Assembly (NCBI RefSeq): GCF_000235365.1 | Contig: NC_016453.1 | Span: 930,001-994,000, forward strand | From: Eremothecium cymbalariae DBVPG#7215 | Lineage: Eukaryota; Ascomycota; Saccharomycetes; Saccharomycetales; Saccharomycetaceae | DNA: 64,000 nt | Direction of reading: 5' to 3' | In this document: positions 16,236-24,896 of the stretch, piece by piece | How positions within the stretch are numbered: position 1 is the stretch's first letter | Layout of the letters: each line of letters begins with the position of its first letter | Program-made: the position numbers and the translations under genes | Notes under the pieces: generated by a model | What the model was told of the DNA's origin: nothing | The model's database searches: none | Seen by the model: only the letters and a program-made list of their open reading frames with translations

Positions 16236-16970
16236 CTATTTAATAAAAGGAATACCAACTCCCACTGCCTTTTTGTAGGATGCGTATTCGGCACCAAAAA
16301 ATCTCATCAAATAGTGTTCCTCAAACTGAATCCTCTTACTGAAAAATCTCCACAACAGGAAGATATATAATACAAAAGAGACCGGGTTCAAGAGTAGAGC
16401 CTGTGTGCCTAATGCCCACCAGAAATATCCAAGATAGGAGGGATGGCGGGACCAGCTGTATAGCCCACTTTTCACTAATTTATGATCCGAATTCCGAGTT
16501 GTCTTCACTTCATGCGAAAACGATTGTCCTGCAGTAATCATCGCCTTAGACCTCACATATTGACCAAATAAGATAAGAATAATTCCGAACGCAACAACCA
16601 GCATATGGAATCCGTTGTACCTGGTCGACTTCCACTCCCGATACAAGTAGAATTCAATAGCATACTCACTTGTCGCGAAAATGTGCGCAAACGCATAAGT
16701 CTTACCATTGTTAATCAAAAAGGACTCTGAGTTAACTTTACCAGGGTTATACAGGGCAGTAATATAATACTCCAGGTAATGAAACACTGCCATAGCAATG
16801 ATGTACACATTGAAGTTTTTAAAATTCACATAATTAAATAGACCACAGCCAAGGCCCAGAAAAATTCCCAAAACATATGCAGTAGAACAGATTACATGTA
16901 GGGGGTTTTTGGTGATGTTCGGATAGGGCTTGCCATCAATGATAACTGGTATATCTTCTTCGGTCGACAT
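16236..16970 (-). CDS. STE14: Ste14, protein-S-isoprenylcysteine O-methyltransferase
   Basis: 244 residues, about the usual 239. Several membrane segments are visible, and the C-terminal ICMT signature is complete: SRHPSYLGYFWWALGTQ, then RIQFEEHYLMRFFG followed by YASYKKAVGVGIPF. The enzyme sits in the ER membrane and methylates the C-terminal farnesyl- or geranylgeranyl-cysteine of CaaX proteins, including Ras and the a-factor pheromone, using S-adenosylmethionine. The first Met gives the expected N-terminus. It follows SIZ1 as in S. cerevisiae (YDR409W-YDR410C), but two genes known from YML041-042 separate it here from the derlin gene. Confidence 0.95.
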   Translation of the reverse strand: MSTEEDIPVIIDGKPYPNITKNPLHVICSTAYVLGIFLGLGCGLFNYVNFKNFNVYIIAMAVFHYLEYYITALYNPGKVNSESFLINNGKTYAFAHIFATSEYAIEFYLYREWKSTRYNGFHMLVVAFGIILILFGQYVRSKAMITAGQSFSHEVKTTRNSDHKLVKSGLYSWSRHPSYLGYFWWALGTQALLLNPVSFVLYIFLLWRFFSKRIQFEEHYLMRFFGAEYASYKKAVGVGIPFIK

Positions 16971-17375: not shown

Positions 17376-18152
17376 TTATTGAGAGCATCTTGTTTCGTTG
17401 TGTAAATTGTAGCATCTCAGACTGCATAATTTGTTCATGCATTTGACGCAACTCGAAATGCTCTTATATCCACCGCATATCGAGCATACGGTTATCACAG
17501 GTAAAACCTTGGAAATTTTTTTATTGTAGACATTGTTGTATATGATGCTCTTGTTTACCTGGTCCAATGTATCCAAATAGCTGCTTAAGGGCCTTCTAGA
17601 AGACAGTGTTTTCTTCAATGCTACAATTCGGTTTGTATTCTTTCTCTTCGGTACGGGAGGTTTTGTGCAATGGTACATCAACTGTATGTTTTTTGGCAAT
17701 TCAAATTTGTTTCTGGCTCTGTTTACTGAAGCATTCTGTGGCAGTACTGAACCTGTTGAAATTTCGGTGTTTGCCTGATCAATACGATCCTTGTTTATAC
17801 CTGTGATAATGCTCATGAGGTATGACACATCCCTTATTTCTGCAAAGTTTTCTGTATCAAGCTCCATAAATCTCTTATTTGACTTTAGTAATTCATGCTG
17901 CGAGTAGCGGTCCAATCCTCCTGAGCTTCTATCATTCTCTGCACTTATATTGCTATCTGATTGTTTATTCTGATTGTATATCTTATTTTCCAAGTCCGCC
18001 AATGAATAGTTGACCCTTTTATTTGACCTGTGGGAATTGCTTGAGGATGACTTAGAAATCCGGTTTCTGTAAGACGGAGTGAGAGAGTTAAGGCTGCTAA
18101 AATAAAGATGAGGGTTGTAAGTTCTCGGGTTGATTTCCTCAACAAAGCCCAT
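17376..18152 (-). CDS. VPS71: Vps71/Swc6, SWR1 chromatin-remodelling complex subunit
   Basis: 258 residues against about 280. The N-terminus (VEEINPRTYNPHLYFSSL), the block KRVNYSLADLENKIY and the central PKRKNTNRIVALKK match S. cerevisiae Vps71. The C-terminus is a HIT-type zinc finger: CSICGGY, SCVKCMNKLCS, C, then H and C in LHNETRCSQ, giving the Cys/His pattern at residues about 221-256. Within SWR1 the protein pairs with Arp6 to hold nucleosomes while histone H2A.Z is installed. In S. cerevisiae it is YML041C, next to CAT2 (YML042W), and CAT2 is also the next gene here. Confidence 0.94.
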   Translation of the reverse strand: MGFVEEINPRTYNPHLYFSSLNSLTPSYRNRISKSSSSNSHRSNKRVNYSLADLENKIYNQNKQSDSNISAENDRSSGGLDRYSQHELLKSNKRFMELDTENFAEIRDVSYLMSIITGINKDRIDQANTEISTGSVLPQNASVNRARNKFELPKNIQLMYHCTKPPVPKRKNTNRIVALKKTLSSRRPLSSYLDTLDQVNKSIIYNNVYNKKISKVLPVITVCSICGGYKSISSCVKCMNKLCSLRCYNLHNETRCSQ

Positions 18153-18751: not shown

Positions 18752-20713
18752 CTACAATTTAGCCTTTGACTGAGCCTCCCTGGATAGCAATTCGTACATC
18801 TCATTGGCAGCTTGGGTTAGACAGTAGTGGAATTCATTTACATCGTAGCCAGACTTCTTTGGTTTTGTAACGATGTTGATGTTCATCCAGTCATTGTTCA
18901 ACATGTATGCCAAACCAAAACCATTTTCGTTGACTTGAGACCAGCCGTAGCCTTCAAAATATTCAGAAGACAACTGGCTGGTTGACACCAACCAGGTACA
19001 TGAATACTGAAACAAGGGATCTTTAAATAACTCCGGAACTTCGTCGTCAGGTTTTAACATGTTCTTCATACCAAAGAAGTGACGGTCAATACCTTGGCCA
19101 TCAGCGGCCATTGCCAAGTAATTGGAATGGAACCTTGCAGATTCACGTAAGGCAGAAATCTTTTCTGCTGGGGTAGCCTTTGGTGATTGCCAGGTTTTGA
19201 CGAATTCAGCAGAGGCGCTGGACACAGAACGGCCAGTTTCTGTTCTACCCTTGAAATACTTCCTCGTGGAGCCTGCTTCATAAGTTGGGAGTTGTTTCCC
19301 CAAATACTTGTAAACAGCCAGTTGTATAATTTGTTGTATGTAAGCATCAGGAGAAAACCCAAAGCCTTTTATTGTTTTCTTCCCATATCTAATGTAGTTC
19401 CACACACGGAGGTCATGCTCACCAATAACTTCATGGAAAGCAGTGCGAGCGCTAGCGATAATCGACTGGATGAATGGAGTGAGAACAAATGGCAAGTGAA
19501 CAGGAAGGTGTTCCTCCGAAGACAAACCGGATTTAATAGAATCGGCAAACTCGTTAGGGTCTAGGTTCAATAGTTCCTGACAAACATACTGGTTCAAAAA
19601 CAAGTTGGGAGTACCATCCATCTTCGAATGCTCAGCAAGGAATCCGGAAACTCCGTTGCCACAAACAAAGAATTGAACGGCTTTGTCGTTGAATCTATTG
19701 ACACCATCACCATGCCAGTTATTTCTAGCTTTGTCCTCCAATGAGATTGGTCTTTGCTCAGAATCCAATGCAAGCAAAAATGACGAGCGATGAATTGTTT
19801 CCAGGGATGAACGGGATAATGAATTGGTCATCAAGCTTGAGTACGCAGCGTGCCATTCGTCACGGGGCAACGTAGTCAACAGTCCAACACCAGCATTGGT
19901 ATCCTCTCTTACAGAAGCAGACACCTTGTGCACAACATCATACAACTGTTTCCAAATTTGGGCAGGTGCCAGTGGCTTCCCAGTTTTGCTGTCATGAGTA
20001 AATACCTTGTAGTAATTACCCTTATAAGCAACCGTTACAAAATCATTCTCATAAATAGAATAGAAAACATTACTGTCACGGCCCTTACCAGGAATACGGG
20101 ACGTATTGAACATCAGCTGGAAACTATTCATACAGAAAGGAGAACCCTTGATAACCTCAGGCGGTATAGCCTCATCCTTTAGCACCTCAATAAACTTCAC
20201 AACAGTAGTAATTATTGCCGTAGCCTTCACCAAGTAATCCTCATCAATCGCCTTATGAGTAATAGGCAACGGCTTATGGCCAAAGAAATAGGAAACATAC
20301 GGCACAATAGGATCATTGTACTCCAAATACGACTGATTATCCCAAAACTCACTCATCCAATTCCGTTTATCCTTGGAATGTTCCAAAAGTCGTGAGTGCA
20401 GCACGGGCCCCTGCTTCTTCAAAAACTCCGAGCACAAGTACCGCTGTCTCTCAACCTCCTCCTCAGTCTTGCACAATGGGGCTACACTATCCAAATACTT
20501 CTGAATCGTCGAACTTAGCTCAGGAACCGGTAATGATGGCAACGCCGCCTGTTTTGAAAACGTTTCACCCTTAAAACTTACTCTCTTGGACTGATAATAA
20601 GCATTCTGATGCTTAGCAACATAATGCTCACCATTTTTAGTTTCAAACTGGTACGACTTCAATGCAGATACCATCCTTCTAACTACCACCTGTGGATGTT
20701 TACTTTTAATCAT
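18752..20713 (-). CDS. CAT2: Carnitine O-acetyltransferase, mitochondrial and peroxisomal
   Basis: 653 residues against about 670; similar over its whole length to S. cerevisiae Cat2. It exchanges acetyl groups between CoA and carnitine so that acetyl units can cross organelle membranes. The catalytic His lies in FLAEHSKMDGTP, and STRKYFKGRTETGR with the later STSQLSSEYFEGYGW are family substrate-site motifs. The protein ends in AKL, a peroxisomal PTS1. The first 13 residues are basic and free of acid, followed by a second in-frame Met at residue 14 (start base 20674), so the S. cerevisiae arrangement of a long mitochondrial and a short peroxisomal form looks conserved. Confidence 0.96.
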   Translation of the reverse strand: MIKSKHPQVVVRRMVSALKSYQFETKNGEHYVAKHQNAYYQSKRVSFKGETFSKQAALPSLPVPELSSTIQKYLDSVAPLCKTEEEVERQRYLCSEFLKKQGPVLHSRLLEHSKDKRNWMSEFWDNQSYLEYNDPIVPYVSYFFGHKPLPITHKAIDEDYLVKATAIITTVVKFIEVLKDEAIPPEVIKGSPFCMNSFQLMFNTSRIPGKGRDSNVFYSIYENDFVTVAYKGNYYKVFTHDSKTGKPLAPAQIWKQLYDVVHKVSASVREDTNAGVGLLTTLPRDEWHAAYSSLMTNSLSRSSLETIHRSSFLLALDSEQRPISLEDKARNNWHGDGVNRFNDKAVQFFVCGNGVSGFLAEHSKMDGTPNLFLNQYVCQELLNLDPNEFADSIKSGLSSEEHLPVHLPFVLTPFIQSIIASARTAFHEVIGEHDLRVWNYIRYGKKTIKGFGFSPDAYIQQIIQLAVYKYLGKQLPTYEAGSTRKYFKGRTETGRSVSSASAEFVKTWQSPKATPAEKISALRESARFHSNYLAMAADGQGIDRHFFGMKNMLKPDDEVPELFKDPLFQYSCTWLVSTSQLSSEYFEGYGWSQVNENGFGLAYMLNNDWMNINIVTKPKKSGYDVNEFHYCLTQAANEMYELLSREAQSKAKL

Positions 20714-21271
20714 CAGACGAATTCCCGGGTGAGTGTTTTCTTATTATTGTCAATCCCTATATTGTACAAGAACTTATCGCTCCTTTCGATCTAACTCTAC
20801 TTTGCAACATTATATATACCTCTACGCAATAAGCACAATTAATACGCCATTTCACTATAAAAACAGTAAATAGAAAGTAGTAATAATATAGTCACACAAA
20901 TTAACTGTTCTATCCACCCTCACCCTAAGTGGCACCAACGCATTAGACCCTATCTATGGGATGTGTGGTCATCAACACACATGACTCCGATTGCTACTAA
21001 CCCAGTCTTGCTATAACCATGTTCATTAATGGCGATAATCACCTTCCGAACAGTTCATGGATTTTCGGAACCCAGTATGGGGAATTGGGTGAGGAAGGGA
21101 AAGAGCTGCAACGACGGAATTGAGGCACGGGGGGGGACCAAGCCGGAGGGCGCTGGTGGGTTACCCTGATGGGGAATAGCAGGCTCGAGGACAGACAGGT
21201 GATGATGATGAGTATAGACTATTTGTATGTAAACATTAGAAGAAATAGGATTTGCGTTCATGAAGTCGGGA
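20714..21271. promoter_or_regulatory. CAT2 promoter / derlin-thioredoxin 3' flank
   Basis: 558 bases. The CAT2-proximal half is AT-rich promoter-like sequence; no oleate or carbon-source element could be assigned with confidence. From about 21055 the base composition becomes clearly GC-rich, with a run of eight or more G near 21130, continuing into the thioredoxin end of the next gene. Confidence 0.5.
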
Positions 21272-22501
21272 TTATGAATTGGATTGGATTGCTTTTTTGA
21301 TCGCCGTGGGGTTGACACCAACTATCCTGGCAAGCTCTGTGCCCTTTTTGAATACGATGACCGTGGGCATGGAAGTTACCGAGTAGGTGGAGGCAATGGT
21401 GCTGAGGTGATCGACGTCGAGCTTGTAGAAATCGACGTTTGGATGTTGGGAGGCGTATTGTTCCAAAATTGGGGCGAGCATTTTGCAAGGACCACACCAT
21501 GTTGCAAAGAAGTCCACGATGACGAGGCGGTTTGGGGAGATGGAGGAGGAGAATTGGGAGGCGGACCTGATGAGTTCGACGCAGCGAGGGGCTGTTGATG
21601 GTGTCAAGAAGCTTCGGCGAGCGAGGGGGATGGCTTTGCCGTCATGAAGACGGCGACCTTGGCCCTTGAAGTTGGTTGCACTGGTTGTAGACTTGGCGGC
21701 ACCTCTGTGGGGTTGTGCCACCGGGGGGTGAGCTTTAGCACCCGAACCAAAGAGCCGCATTAAGAGGTGTCTGCCTTTAAAATGGTTATCCTTGAACGTT
21801 GGGTAGCCATAGTTGGGCTTGTTGGTCATGAAGCCGAAGAGCGGGCCAAAGGTCCAGGTATCCAAACAGCAGTAGATGTATGCCGAAGTGTACCCAAATA
21901 GCATCATAGACAACTCATGCGGAGAGTGGTCGAGAATATGGATCAGAAGGTTGATGAGGGGAAGGTACTTGCCCTGCACAGAGAAAATTATGTAGTTAAC
22001 GGATGTGTTAGTGTTGGTAACCGACCATGTGTATAATAAAATAGCTTCAAACGCAGGAAATAGAGTTGCAATACGAAATTCAAAGAGCGCTACAGATAGC
22101 GAAGCCAATATCGTTGTAGTAGTCATGCAGAATAGTAAGAAGAACGAATAATTGACCGAATCTCCCACAAAATAGTCCAGTTCTAAATTACAGGAATTGG
22201 TGTATACCTGATAAAACAACATAAGTACCGTCTGCAACGAGTTATAGTGTACAACCATAAATAGGCCAAACATCCTCCAAAACTCATAAGAATGTGATCT
22301 AGAATCCCACCACGAAACAACAATGCTCAGAAGCGTTAATTGGGTGTATCTGCTTATACACCAAAGCAACAGAATAAAGAGTATGCATCTTGTTACTATA
22401 GGTATATCACTGAGGAATTGTACTATCACACTGTTACTCTGAACTGCTATCGCCATCTGTCTTGTCGGATCTGCTAGAACAAAACACTTGTTCTTGAACA
22501 C
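21272..22501 (-). CDS. DFM1: Continuous frame: Dfm1-type derlin joined to Trx3-type thioredoxin
   Basis: 409 residues in one frame with no stop. Residues 1-250 match S. cerevisiae Dfm1, an ER rhomboid pseudoprotease for membrane-protein degradation: several membrane segments, the derlin WR pair (W75 R76), YTWSVTNTN and GKYLPLINLLI, CLDTWTFGP. The membrane GxxxG equivalent reads GYTSA (G203, A207). An SHP box, FKGQGRRL (278-285), is the usual Cdc48-binding tail. The frame then runs on through a basic, Ser/Arg-rich linker (286-325) into a complete thioredoxin (326-409) with VDFFATWCGPCK (active-site Cys336 and Cys339), the cis-Pro in TSMPTV, and a C-terminus GVNPTAIKKAI like mitochondrial Trx3. 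In S. cerevisiae these are two genes (YDR411C, YCR083W). Met16 is an alternative derlin start. Either a fusion, or TRX3 starting inside the derlin frame, for example at Met248. Confidence 0.85.
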   Translation of the reverse strand: MFKNKCFVLADPTRQMAIAVQSNSVIVQFLSDIPIVTRCILFILLLWCISRYTQLTLLSIVVSWWDSRSHSYEFWRMFGLFMVVHYNSLQTVLMLFYQVYTNSCNLELDYFVGDSVNYSFFLLFCMTTTTILASLSVALFEFRIATLFPAFEAILLYTWSVTNTNTSVNYIIFSVQGKYLPLINLLIHILDHSPHELSMMLFGYTSAYIYCCLDTWTFGPLFGFMTNKPNYGYPTFKDNHFKGRHLLMRLFGSGAKAHPPVAQPHRGAAKSTTSATNFKGQGRRLHDGKAIPLARRSFLTPSTAPRCVELIRSASQFSSSISPNRLVIVDFFATWCGPCKMLAPILEQYASQHPNVDFYKLDVDHLSTIASTYSVTSMPTVIVFKKGTELARIVGVNPTAIKKAIQSNS

Positions 22502-22915
22502 TTACCGGGGGTACAAGACTACAATTCGTGTGTCTTAAATTAAATGTTATCAGTTTCCTACGTACGACTATCGAGATTACATTATACGAATTATCATTGT
22601 ATGGTGTGTGGGTGCAGAATCCTTATTAATAACGTTCCAATCTCGAATTCTCCACCAGGGCTGTTTATGATAGTTCAGCATCTGGTGGTGAAGCTGGCGG
22701 TGTCTACTGCAAGGGCTGGTGCTTGCATCTGTGTATACGTATAATCGATCAACTGGTTGTTCTTGTTAAGGTTTATAGCCGCCTTTGTTATCAACATGAA
22801 AATTTTCTCGATGAGTATATAATAGATTTGAATTAGATCTTAATGACAATCTCAAGAAGAGCATTCCTAGTTGCACAGGGTGAGTCGAGCTGGAGGGAGG
22901 ATTAAAGCATTCACT
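22502..22915. promoter_or_regulatory. Divergent promoter derlin-thioredoxin / RRP17
   Basis: 414 bases between divergent starts, the same arrangement as YDR411C-YDR412W. It carries RRPE- and PAC-like sites on the RRP17 side, listed separately. Confidence 0.55.
22797..22815 (+). promoter_or_regulatory. RRPE-like plus PAC sites upstream of RRP17
   Basis: TGAAAATTTT (one A short of the RRPE consensus) is followed within a few bases by CGATGAG, the PAC core. The pair lies about 100 bases before the RRP17 start. PAC and RRPE together mark ribosome-biogenesis promoters in yeasts (Dot6/Tod6 and Stb3 sites). Confidence 0.6.
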
Positions 22916-23637
22916 ATGGTGAGGAATAACAGAGAGATTCTTTCTGGAGGGAAGAGGTACAAGCAGAATGCTGGTAAAAGGCATGGAGCAGAGGAGATTA
23001 CTTTTGATAGGGATTCCCGGTTAGAATATCTTACTGGGTTCCACAAACGTAAGGTAGAGAGGCAGAAGAAGGCTAAGGAATCGATAAAAGAACAGGAACG
23101 TGTTAATAGGATCGAGGAAAGGAAGAAAATCAGGGATGAAAGAAAAAAGAGATGGAGGAACACTTAGAGAAACTGAAACAGTCGATGAGGGAAGTTGGGA
23201 CGTTGGAGAGTGACGGCGAGGCAGAGTCATCAGTATCTTTGGAACATAAAAAAAAGCGTAAGAGAGGTGGTGGTATTGATGAGGGGGCGGAGGAGAAGGA
23301 CGGGGAGGAGGATTCTTGGAATGGATTTTCTGACAGTGACTCTGAAGGGTCTGTGAAGCCTATTTTAAAAAAGCAGAAAGTTTATGAAGATGATACAACG
23401 GTTGAAATCGAGCCATTAGAGCCCAATAATAATTTTGAGTACTTAGCTCGGTTGAACAACGTAAAGCTTGAAAATTCTAAGAAGGTTCTGGATGAGAGTA
23501 TAGATAGGGCTAAGAAATATGCAAAGTTTCTAGGTATGGAGGATAAGCCCGCAAAGAAAAAGAAGTTCAGGTACTTGACCAAGGCTGAAAGAAGGGCAAA
23601 CCAGAGAAAAGCTAATTCTAACAAAAGAAGAAAATGA
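22916..23637 (+). CDS. RRP17: Rrp17, 5' end-processing exonuclease of pre-60S (frameshifted)
   Basis: Two overlapping frames together give the Nol12/Rrp17 family protein. The first (MVRNNREILSGGKRY ... RKKIRDERKK) matches the N-terminus with its coiled-coil basic helix; the second carries the acidic middle and the conserved end (EPNNNFEYLARLNNVKLE, AKKYAKFLGMEDK, FRYLTKAERRANQRKAN). The break is at the A6 run 23143-23148: stepping back one base after AAA AAG reads on into GAG ATG GAG and gives 240 residues, near the usual 235. Without the shift the protein stops a few codons later. Rrp17 trims 5' ends of 5.8S and 25S rRNA and is essential in S. cerevisiae, so the gene is probably functional. 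One missing A in the sequence is the simplest cause. Confidence 0.88.
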
Positions 23638-23747: not shown

Positions 23748-24896
23748 TCACTTTTTGGTGCCAACGGATAAATATTCTGTTTCTACTTTAAAAAACGTCC
23801 AAATCCAGCGTCTGAAGACTTCTAGTGTGTGTAGCCATAGCAAATTCGTCTCCCAAGAGACAATAACTCTCTTTATCAGTAACTCCCACATCCACATAAA
23901 CTTTACAACAAAATCGAATACGATTGCACCATAGTAATACCAATCATTAGAGTAAAGTCTCCGTTTTCTAAGGATTTCGTTTCTTTCAACACCCGTGGAA
24001 CTGAAATCTAATAAACCCAATTTCCAATCCATCGTTATATCCCACCAAAAACTGTAGCAACTGTTGAACAACATAAACCAATATATAGTGCCACTAGGGA
24101 AGGTTTCAGGTGATATGCGGCTGAATAAACCACAAACAATAATTGGGAAATATGAGAAATATTTTAATGCATTAAAAAAGCTAGCTCTGCGGGTACTCCA
24201 AGGATTGTCTAATCGAGCATATTCTCTCAGACATTGGATAAATCTTATCAAATAGGGCAGCAGTCCTATAGCCAAATCAAAATTCATAAAGACTTCACTA
24301 CTGGATTCCGTCAAAGTAAGCTTTTTATCAAACGGCAGCAACGTTAAATACCATAGATATAATCCAAAATCCATAAAAGGCTTGCTATACGAGGTCAATG
24401 TATCTGCAAGCAAGACATAATTAGTCCTTAATGGTTTACCCTCAATATCGCCCCAAAACAAAATCCCCTTGAGACATCGACGTAGCATTGCTGAACTTCT
24501 CAATAGAATAAATAAAATCACCAGAAATTGTAGTAACCCAGAAAAATTAATTGCCACTAGTAGCCATGTTGGCAAATCTTGTTGAACGTTGAAGGATTTT
24601 TGCAATATTAGGAAGACCAATAAATGCCATGGGAGAATTATCTTGGTAATTTTTACTACACACTTCCGTGTACCACTCAATATCCTTGAAGAGCTTGGTT
24701 GGGGCCGAATGTCGTAAGGATCATTTGCAATGATCACCCTGGGAATATCCATCTTCCAAGACAAAATGCAAAGCTCCCAGTACCAGAGCCATAGACCTAG
24801 AATAACCAAGAGAACAACATGCTGTGGAATTGGAAACAGGATGAAGACATAATCAGATAGTGATGCGGTCACTTCTCCAGCCTTCAACGCCGACAT
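23748..24896 (-). CDS. ERD1: Erd1, Golgi membrane protein of the EXS family
   Basis: The start at MSALKAGEV gives 382 residues against about 362 in S. cerevisiae; the longer frame from 24998 adds 34 unmatched residues. About eight hydrophobic segments are visible, and the C-terminal half is an EXS domain, including WSTRRASFFNALKYFSYFP and the aromatic stretch NSCYSFWWDITMDWKLG. Erd1 is needed to keep luminal ER proteins and to recycle Golgi glycosyltransferases, and it has been linked to phosphate recycling from the Golgi lumen. It converges on RRP17, as in YDR412W-YDR414C. Confidence 0.92.
   Translation of the reverse strand: MSALKAGEVTASLSDYVFILFPIPQHVVLLVILGLWLWYWELCILSWKMDIPRVIIANDPYDIRPQPSSSRILSGTRKCVVKITKIILPWHLLVFLILQKSFNVQQDLPTWLLVAINFSGLLQFLVILFILLRSSAMLRRCLKGILFWGDIEGKPLRTNYVLLADTLTSYSKPFMDFGLYLWYLTLLPFDKKLTLTESSSEVFMNFDLAIGLLPYLIRFIQCLREYARLDNPWSTRRASFFNALKYFSYFPIIVCGLFSRISPETFPSGTIYWFMLFNSCYSFWWDITMDWKLGLLDFSSTGVERNEILRKRRLYSNDWYYYGAIVFDFVVKFMWMWELLIKRVIVSWETNLLWLHTLEVFRRWIWTFFKVETEYLSVGTKK

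Follow-up and report, generated by a model that had tools for sequence, protein, structure and literature searches.

In the yeast Eremothecium cymbalariae DBVPG#7215, a Dfm1-type derlin and a thioredoxin are encoded by one uninterrupted reading frame, and the same join recurs in three further proteins. The gene occupies positions 21272..22456 on the minus strand of the window, by which we mean the whole 64,000-nucleotide stretch of DNA that was analyzed. The derlin–thioredoxin architecture is well supported, and from it we infer a function at the membrane of the endoplasmic reticulum (ER).

An earlier note on this DNA had claimed that the two domains share a single frame. This proved correct: no stop codon interrupts the minus strand from 22501 to 21272, an open stop-to-stop frame of 409 codons, and both Pfam domains score above their cut-offs. 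The same note let the feature start at 22501. The open frame does reach that position, which is only an upstream limit: the stretch 22457..22501 holds no ATG and has a TAA directly upstream, and the first ATG, at 22456, opens an intron-free frame of 394 codons plus stop. The 394-residue product begins with a Der1-like derlin membrane domain (21857..22405, minus strand, residues 18–200; PF04511, E 3.3e-18, 66.8 bits against a cut-off of 26.6), continues with a basic tail and linker (21566..21856, minus strand, residues 201–297), and ends with a thioredoxin domain (21284..21565, minus strand, residues 298–391; PF00085, E 8.8e-26, 90.4 bits against a cut-off of 23.5).

A search of about 5.8 billion protein sequences returned 51 matches, four of which, this protein included, carry both domains. 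The other three full-length fusions are HHL265Wp of E. sinecaudum, AAR125Cp of E. gossypii, and the 399-residue protein P0004. Aligned end to end, these relatives are 50, 47, and 44% identical to the E. cymbalariae protein; they score 75.3, 91.8, and 75.6 bits against the DER1 profile, all above the cut-off, and also pass the cut-off for thioredoxin. Every derlin match retrieved (4/4) was such a full-length fusion with both Pfam domains above cut-off, and a profile search with the derlin part brought up no proteins beyond the same four. That this search found no relatives lacking the fusion is probably due to there being too few exact words in common with other yeast Dfm1 sequences. The earlier note had proposed looking for the joined frame in related yeasts and had named separate genes in close relatives as evidence against it; what we found is the same join in three relatives, so that other sequence sources agree on it. 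With fusions sampled from three Eremothecium species plus P0004, the join may mark a lineage.

Conservation among the four fusions is unevenly distributed. Invariant columns make up 56 of 183 in the derlin domain, 8 of 62 in the tail (residues 201–262), 9 of 12 in the putative Cdc48-binding (SHP) motif together with the adjoining DGK, 1 of 18 in the linker (residues 275–292), and 33 of 102 in the thioredoxin. Invariance in derlin and thioredoxin with a single fixed column between SHP motif and thioredoxin is as expected of two working domains and a flexible linker. As judged from this alignment, both domains and the SHP motif are under constraint, and the linker between them appears to vary freely.

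Base composition was considered as a sign of foreign origin and set aside. The thioredoxin part has a GC3 of 0.657, higher than any of 479 windows of 102 codons each drawn from the 31 other open reading frames of the window. GC3 is already raised within the derlin (0.60–0.73 over codons 151–240); since the rise begins there, it does not mark the joint. A GC-rich island at 21000–21850 spans the latter half of the fusion gene and extends some way past its stop.

The genomic neighborhood points to DFM1. Upstream lies a divergent RRP17-like (Nop25) gene on the plus strand (22916..23637), followed by an ERD1-like gene of the EXS family on the minus strand (23748..24896; PF03124, E 6.3e-67). The downstream neighbor, at the thioredoxin end of the gene, encodes a carnitine O-acyltransferase (18752..20713, minus strand; PF00755, E 8.9e-183). 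It is separated by a 258-residue open reading frame with no Pfam match (17376–18152, minus strand) from a STE14-like (ICMT) gene (16236..16970, minus strand; PF04140, E 3.7e-31), so that two further open reading frames lie between the STE14-like gene and the fusion gene. A gene for a SIZ1-like SAP/MIZ protein is also present in the neighborhood. The order in Saccharomyces cerevisiae, which we take to be SIZ1, STE14, DFM1, RRP17, ERD1, shares these neighbors and places the fusion gene at the DFM1 locus. The suggestion that the derlin is Dfm1-like was thus borne out by the Der1 profile match, the SHP motif, and this position. The RRP17-like gene itself appears as two open reading frames in different frames that overlap at 23152–23167 near an A-rich run; PF09805 matches 22916–23167, and 23152–23637 by itself matches no Pfam family. 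This appearance may reflect a sequencing slip, an intron, or a frameshift.

DER1 of S. cerevisiae presumably lies at MCM7, and the 9.9 kb around MCM7 of E. cymbalariae (L020) contain no derlin-like open reading frame of at least 120 residues. A second PF04511 match was likewise not found in the genome (9,669,424 bases in 8 contigs; one candidate was scored per search), for which excerpts of PMC3276169 describe eight contigs representing eight chromosomes. DER1 may therefore be lost or very diverged in this genome. Elsewhere, on the minus strand of L023 (7093–8049), a 318-residue open reading frame with about six hydrophobic stretches and no Pfam match adjoins an MCM gene.

From the four derlin parts we built a profile, which finds chains of solved Derlin-1 structures with an E value of 1.8e-4. 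A WR motif in the first loop (22274..22279, minus strand, residues 60–61) is present in three of the four fusions and reads WK in E. sinecaudum. At the presumed counterpart of the GxxxG motif of Dfm1, all four proteins contain GxxxA (residues 188–192). According to the available sections of PMC8641752, derlins have six membrane spans, WR in loop 1 and GxxxG in the sixth span are motifs of Dfm1 and Derlin-1, and S. cerevisiae Der1 has neither. Hydropathy averaged over the four fusions peaks at positions 27, 71, 114, and 138 and in a merged cluster at 165/179/191, and the structural model of the derlin is poor: with four sequences as input, AlphaFold gave a whole-model mean pLDDT of 51.4, all values for residues 141–289 below 50, and a poorly folded derlin. 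Both termini of derlins are cytosolic. The tail that follows is strongly basic, with 17 K/R against 3 D/E in residues 202–312, and this charge and the hydropathy are consistent with a derlin having a cytosolic tail. The predicted topology thus rests on homology, hydropathy, and charge.

Within this tail lies a putative Cdc48-binding SHP-type motif, FKGQGRRL (21647..21670, minus strand, residues 263–270). The pattern F.G.G..L, which we take to define SHP motifs, is kept in all four fusions and occurs once in each. An SHP box had been noted before at residues 278–285; the motif is indeed present, and those numbers, counted from 22501, correspond to 263–270 counted from the ATG. Since the thioredoxin follows the SHP motif on a predicted cytosolic tail, the claim that a redox domain sits on the tail just past a Cdc48-binding motif agrees with our analysis.

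The thioredoxin domain is complete, as previously stated, and contains WCGPCK, with a predicted CGPC redox active site at 21485..21496 (minus strand, residues 321–324). WC.PC and the MPT cis-proline site are present in all four fusions; the active site is CGPC in three and CAPC in P0004. This conservation stands against pairwise identities among the four fused thioredoxins of 44–60% (45 to 61 of 102 residues). AlphaFold pLDDT averages for ten-residue blocks from residue 291 onward lie between 83 and 90, except for 68 at residues 321–330, the active-site stretch. With the predicted fold as query, Foldseek returned yeast Trx1 as the best match in the PDB (TM 0.95 by target length); the best 50 of 773 matches included no derlin, all being thioredoxins or thioredoxin-fold entries.

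This domain had been called mitochondrial-type, that is, Trx3. We reject Trx3 as its gene identity. Among ten thioredoxin-domain matches in the genome, a separate TRX3-like gene (C2; L002 1420–1800) encodes 126 residues with an N-terminus that looks like a presequence by eye and finds S. cerevisiae Trx3 as its best solved match, and a TRX1/2-like gene (L003 1468–1779, minus strand) encodes 103 residues. The latter adjoins a gene for a HAD hydrolase, matching the order we expect, with TRX1/2 beside SER2. As the genome has its own TRX3-like and TRX1/2-like genes, the fused domain is a third thioredoxin. Its scores favor Trx1/2 over Trx3, both within the genome (46/98 identities and 114 bits with the TRX1/2-like protein; 39/103 and 93 bits with the TRX3-like protein) and against solved S. 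cerevisiae structures (127.4 bits on the Trx1/2 side, best with Trx1; 83.7 bits with Trx3). Moreover, the fused domain follows a membrane protein.

In both of our phylogenetic trees the four fused domains group together as a clade (support 100/99 and 97/99), in keeping with a single origin. The first tree contained 44 of the 120 listed matches, out of 310 in total, plus 7 rows; the second contained 29 of the 120 plus the 7 and 8 outgroup rows. Approximately unbiased (AU) tests rejected none of the placements of this clade or of TRX3 that we imposed as constraints: fused domains with TRX3 (p = 0.671 and 0.45), fused domains with the genome's own TRX1/2 (p = 0.541), and TRX3 with the outgroup (p = 0.405). 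In the first AU set, both constrained trees exceeded the likelihood of the free tree (by 7.33 and 1.97), which shows that the free search had missed better trees. The first tree's bootstrap was unsettled, the outgroup did not form one side of any branch in the second, the Trx3 rows are very long, and the E. gossypii row is of odd composition. Six other thioredoxins of 135–155 residues (P0067, P0084, P0096, P0098, P0150, and P0170) begin with a hydrophobic, anchor-like stretch, and five of them cluster with a Pichia kudriavzevii sequence in the second tree; perhaps they represent an independent route to tethering a thioredoxin to a membrane.

How might such a protein work? We propose that DFM1 acquired a whole thioredoxin coding unit at its 3' end; the simplest history is a single such event in an ancestor of the species sampled. 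The derlin part would reside in the ER membrane, and its basic tail would extend into the cytosol and hold Cdc48 by the SHP motif. Tethered a few tens of residues past this motif, the thioredoxin would be a membrane-anchored cytosolic reductase beside Cdc48, most likely catalytically active and recharged by cytosolic thioredoxin reductase. Clients, chiefly their folded lumenal parts, would have their disulfides reduced on emerging at the derlin, which would allow threading by Cdc48 and the proteasome. Topology, Cdc48 binding, redox activity, clients, and timing are what we infer here. That this is a DFM1 orthologue with a one-off thioredoxin join, made as a single protein whose cytosolic tail holds Cdc48 and whose active thioredoxin reduces emerging clients, we consider about as probable as its opposite.

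The position of the thioredoxin is what suggests this role, as just past the SHP motif the domain would be located at the point at which folded lumenal segments come out and encounter Cdc48. On the other hand, yeast Trx1 and Trx2 are abundant and soluble, and tethering a thioredoxin may therefore add little. Further points against the model are the poor fold prediction for the derlin, the dip in pLDDT at the active-site stretch, CAPC in P0004, WK in E. sinecaudum, and GxxxA in all four fusions. According to passages of PMC11066878, Cdc48 is recruited by the SHP boxes of S. cerevisiae Dfm1, and one client whose lumenal domain is tightly folded is not fully degraded unless Dfm1 is present. The accessible part of PMC8641752 reports that Dfm1 associates with membrane clients and not with lumenal CPY*, which associates with Der1. 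We suggest only tentatively, as a doubtful extension, that Eremothecium possesses a derlin with its own reductase beside Cdc48, which would couple reduction to extraction and may also serve the lumenal clients of Der1. The last point, that the fused derlin perhaps took over the clients that Der1 handles in S. cerevisiae, follows from our finding no second derlin and is a weak step.

Instead of reducing clients, the thioredoxin might act as a regulator within the same protein: as a redox switch, or simply by binding, it would tune how the derlin recruits Cdc48 or a partner. The active-site tryptophan lies only 50 residues past the end of the SHP motif, and some Cdc48 cofactors carry thioredoxin-like UAS domains. 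A protein of thioredoxin type, TXNL1, is known to dock on the 19S particle of the proteasome (abstract of PMC12700798). A pure binding module would have no need of the active-site cysteines and the cis-proline that all four fusions retain, and we judge regulation unlikely, though deserving of serious weight.

The gene could also release a free thioredoxin through proteolysis, a non-AUG start, or a shorter transcript, so that the fusion would mainly express extra soluble thioredoxin. The weakly conserved linker could be cleaved, and E. cymbalariae has one in-frame ATG between 21800 and 21500, at 21760 (Met233), with a counterpart in E. sinecaudum (Met232). However, a product starting at Met233 would retain the SHP motif. 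Furthermore, methionine is absent from residues 176 to 354 of the E. gossypii fusion and from 171 to 368 of P0004, in both cases from the membrane domain to past CxPC, so that no in-frame AUG can start a complete separate thioredoxin there. Neither GTATGT nor TACTAAC occurs on the minus strand in 20972–22800. Weaker splice-like signals are present, with GTANGT at 22565 and 22505 (both 5' of the ATG) and.ACTAAC at 22013, none of them positioned to split derlin from thioredoxin; looser YTRAC sites also occur in this region, one at 21607. We regard a free thioredoxin as the main output of the gene as rather improbable.

Alternatively, the thioredoxin may be a tolerated passenger on a single protein, with no special role at the ER. 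The genome's two other single-domain thioredoxin genes are both intact, and a third might be redundant. One would expect a domain without use to degenerate, however, and here active site and fold were kept despite the divergence of the four sequences, which makes mere tolerance improbable in our estimate. Finally, the two-frame appearance of the RRP17-like neighbor allows for small errors nearby, but the same join in three other sequence sources refutes in practice the idea that a sequencing or assembly error joined two genes.

We thus favor client reduction by a tethered thioredoxin as the working model. Both domains are of familiar types, and public databases already contain the joined proteins, entered as "Derlin"; the new element is the addition of a thioredoxin domain to a derlin of the Dfm1 type. 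The earlier note knew of no described fusion of this type. This holds for the papers listed in our literature searches, judged mostly by titles and the starts of abstracts, none of which describes the fusion, and does not extend to the databases. The phrases "derlin thioredoxin" and "Dfm1 thioredoxin" and the names of the fusion genes led to no paper. In the main texts of the E. cymbalariae genome, Ashbya genome, and fungal fusion–fission papers, thioredoxin is not mentioned; the same applies to DFM1 in PMC3737163 and PMC2557144 and to derlin in PMC2557144.

The broader interest of this architecture lies at the point where proteins leave the ER. Such proteins often carry disulfides, and the site and agent of their reduction on the cytosolic side are unsettled. 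The natural occurrence of a thioredoxin on a derlin with an SHP motif suggests that these activities go together and that disulfide reduction may be part of the exit gate for doomed proteins. It also offers a ready tool, as a cysteine trap at this gate would list the clients in transit.

Among the closest known systems, derlins of the Dfm1 and Derlin-1 type share with the fusion the Der1-like membrane domain, the WR of the first loop (in three of the four fusions), the SHP-bearing tail, and the DFM1 neighborhood. It differs from Dfm1 in having one SHP motif, where available passages of PMC11066878 give two for Dfm1, and in having GxxxA for GxxxG and the C-terminal thioredoxin. With Trx1 and Trx2, the fused domain shares the fold, WCGPCK, and the cis-proline; unlike them, it is tethered to a membrane protein and forms its own clade. 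With Trx3 it shares membership of the thioredoxin family, whereas this genome has a separate TRX3-like gene and Trx3 gives the fused domain a lower score than Trx1 does. A further parallel is TXNL1, a protein composed of Trx plus PITH, with no derlin or SHP part. As proposed for the fusion, it places a thioredoxin-like protein on degradation machinery, in this case the 19S particle (abstract of PMC12700798). ERdj5, a reductase that accelerates ER-associated degradation, reduces disulfides of aberrant ER proteins (abstract of PMC10591012). ERdj5 is, however, a PDI-family protein that acts with BiP inside the ER before exit, whereas the thioredoxin of the fusion is covalently part of a derlin and is carried on a tail predicted to be cytosolic.
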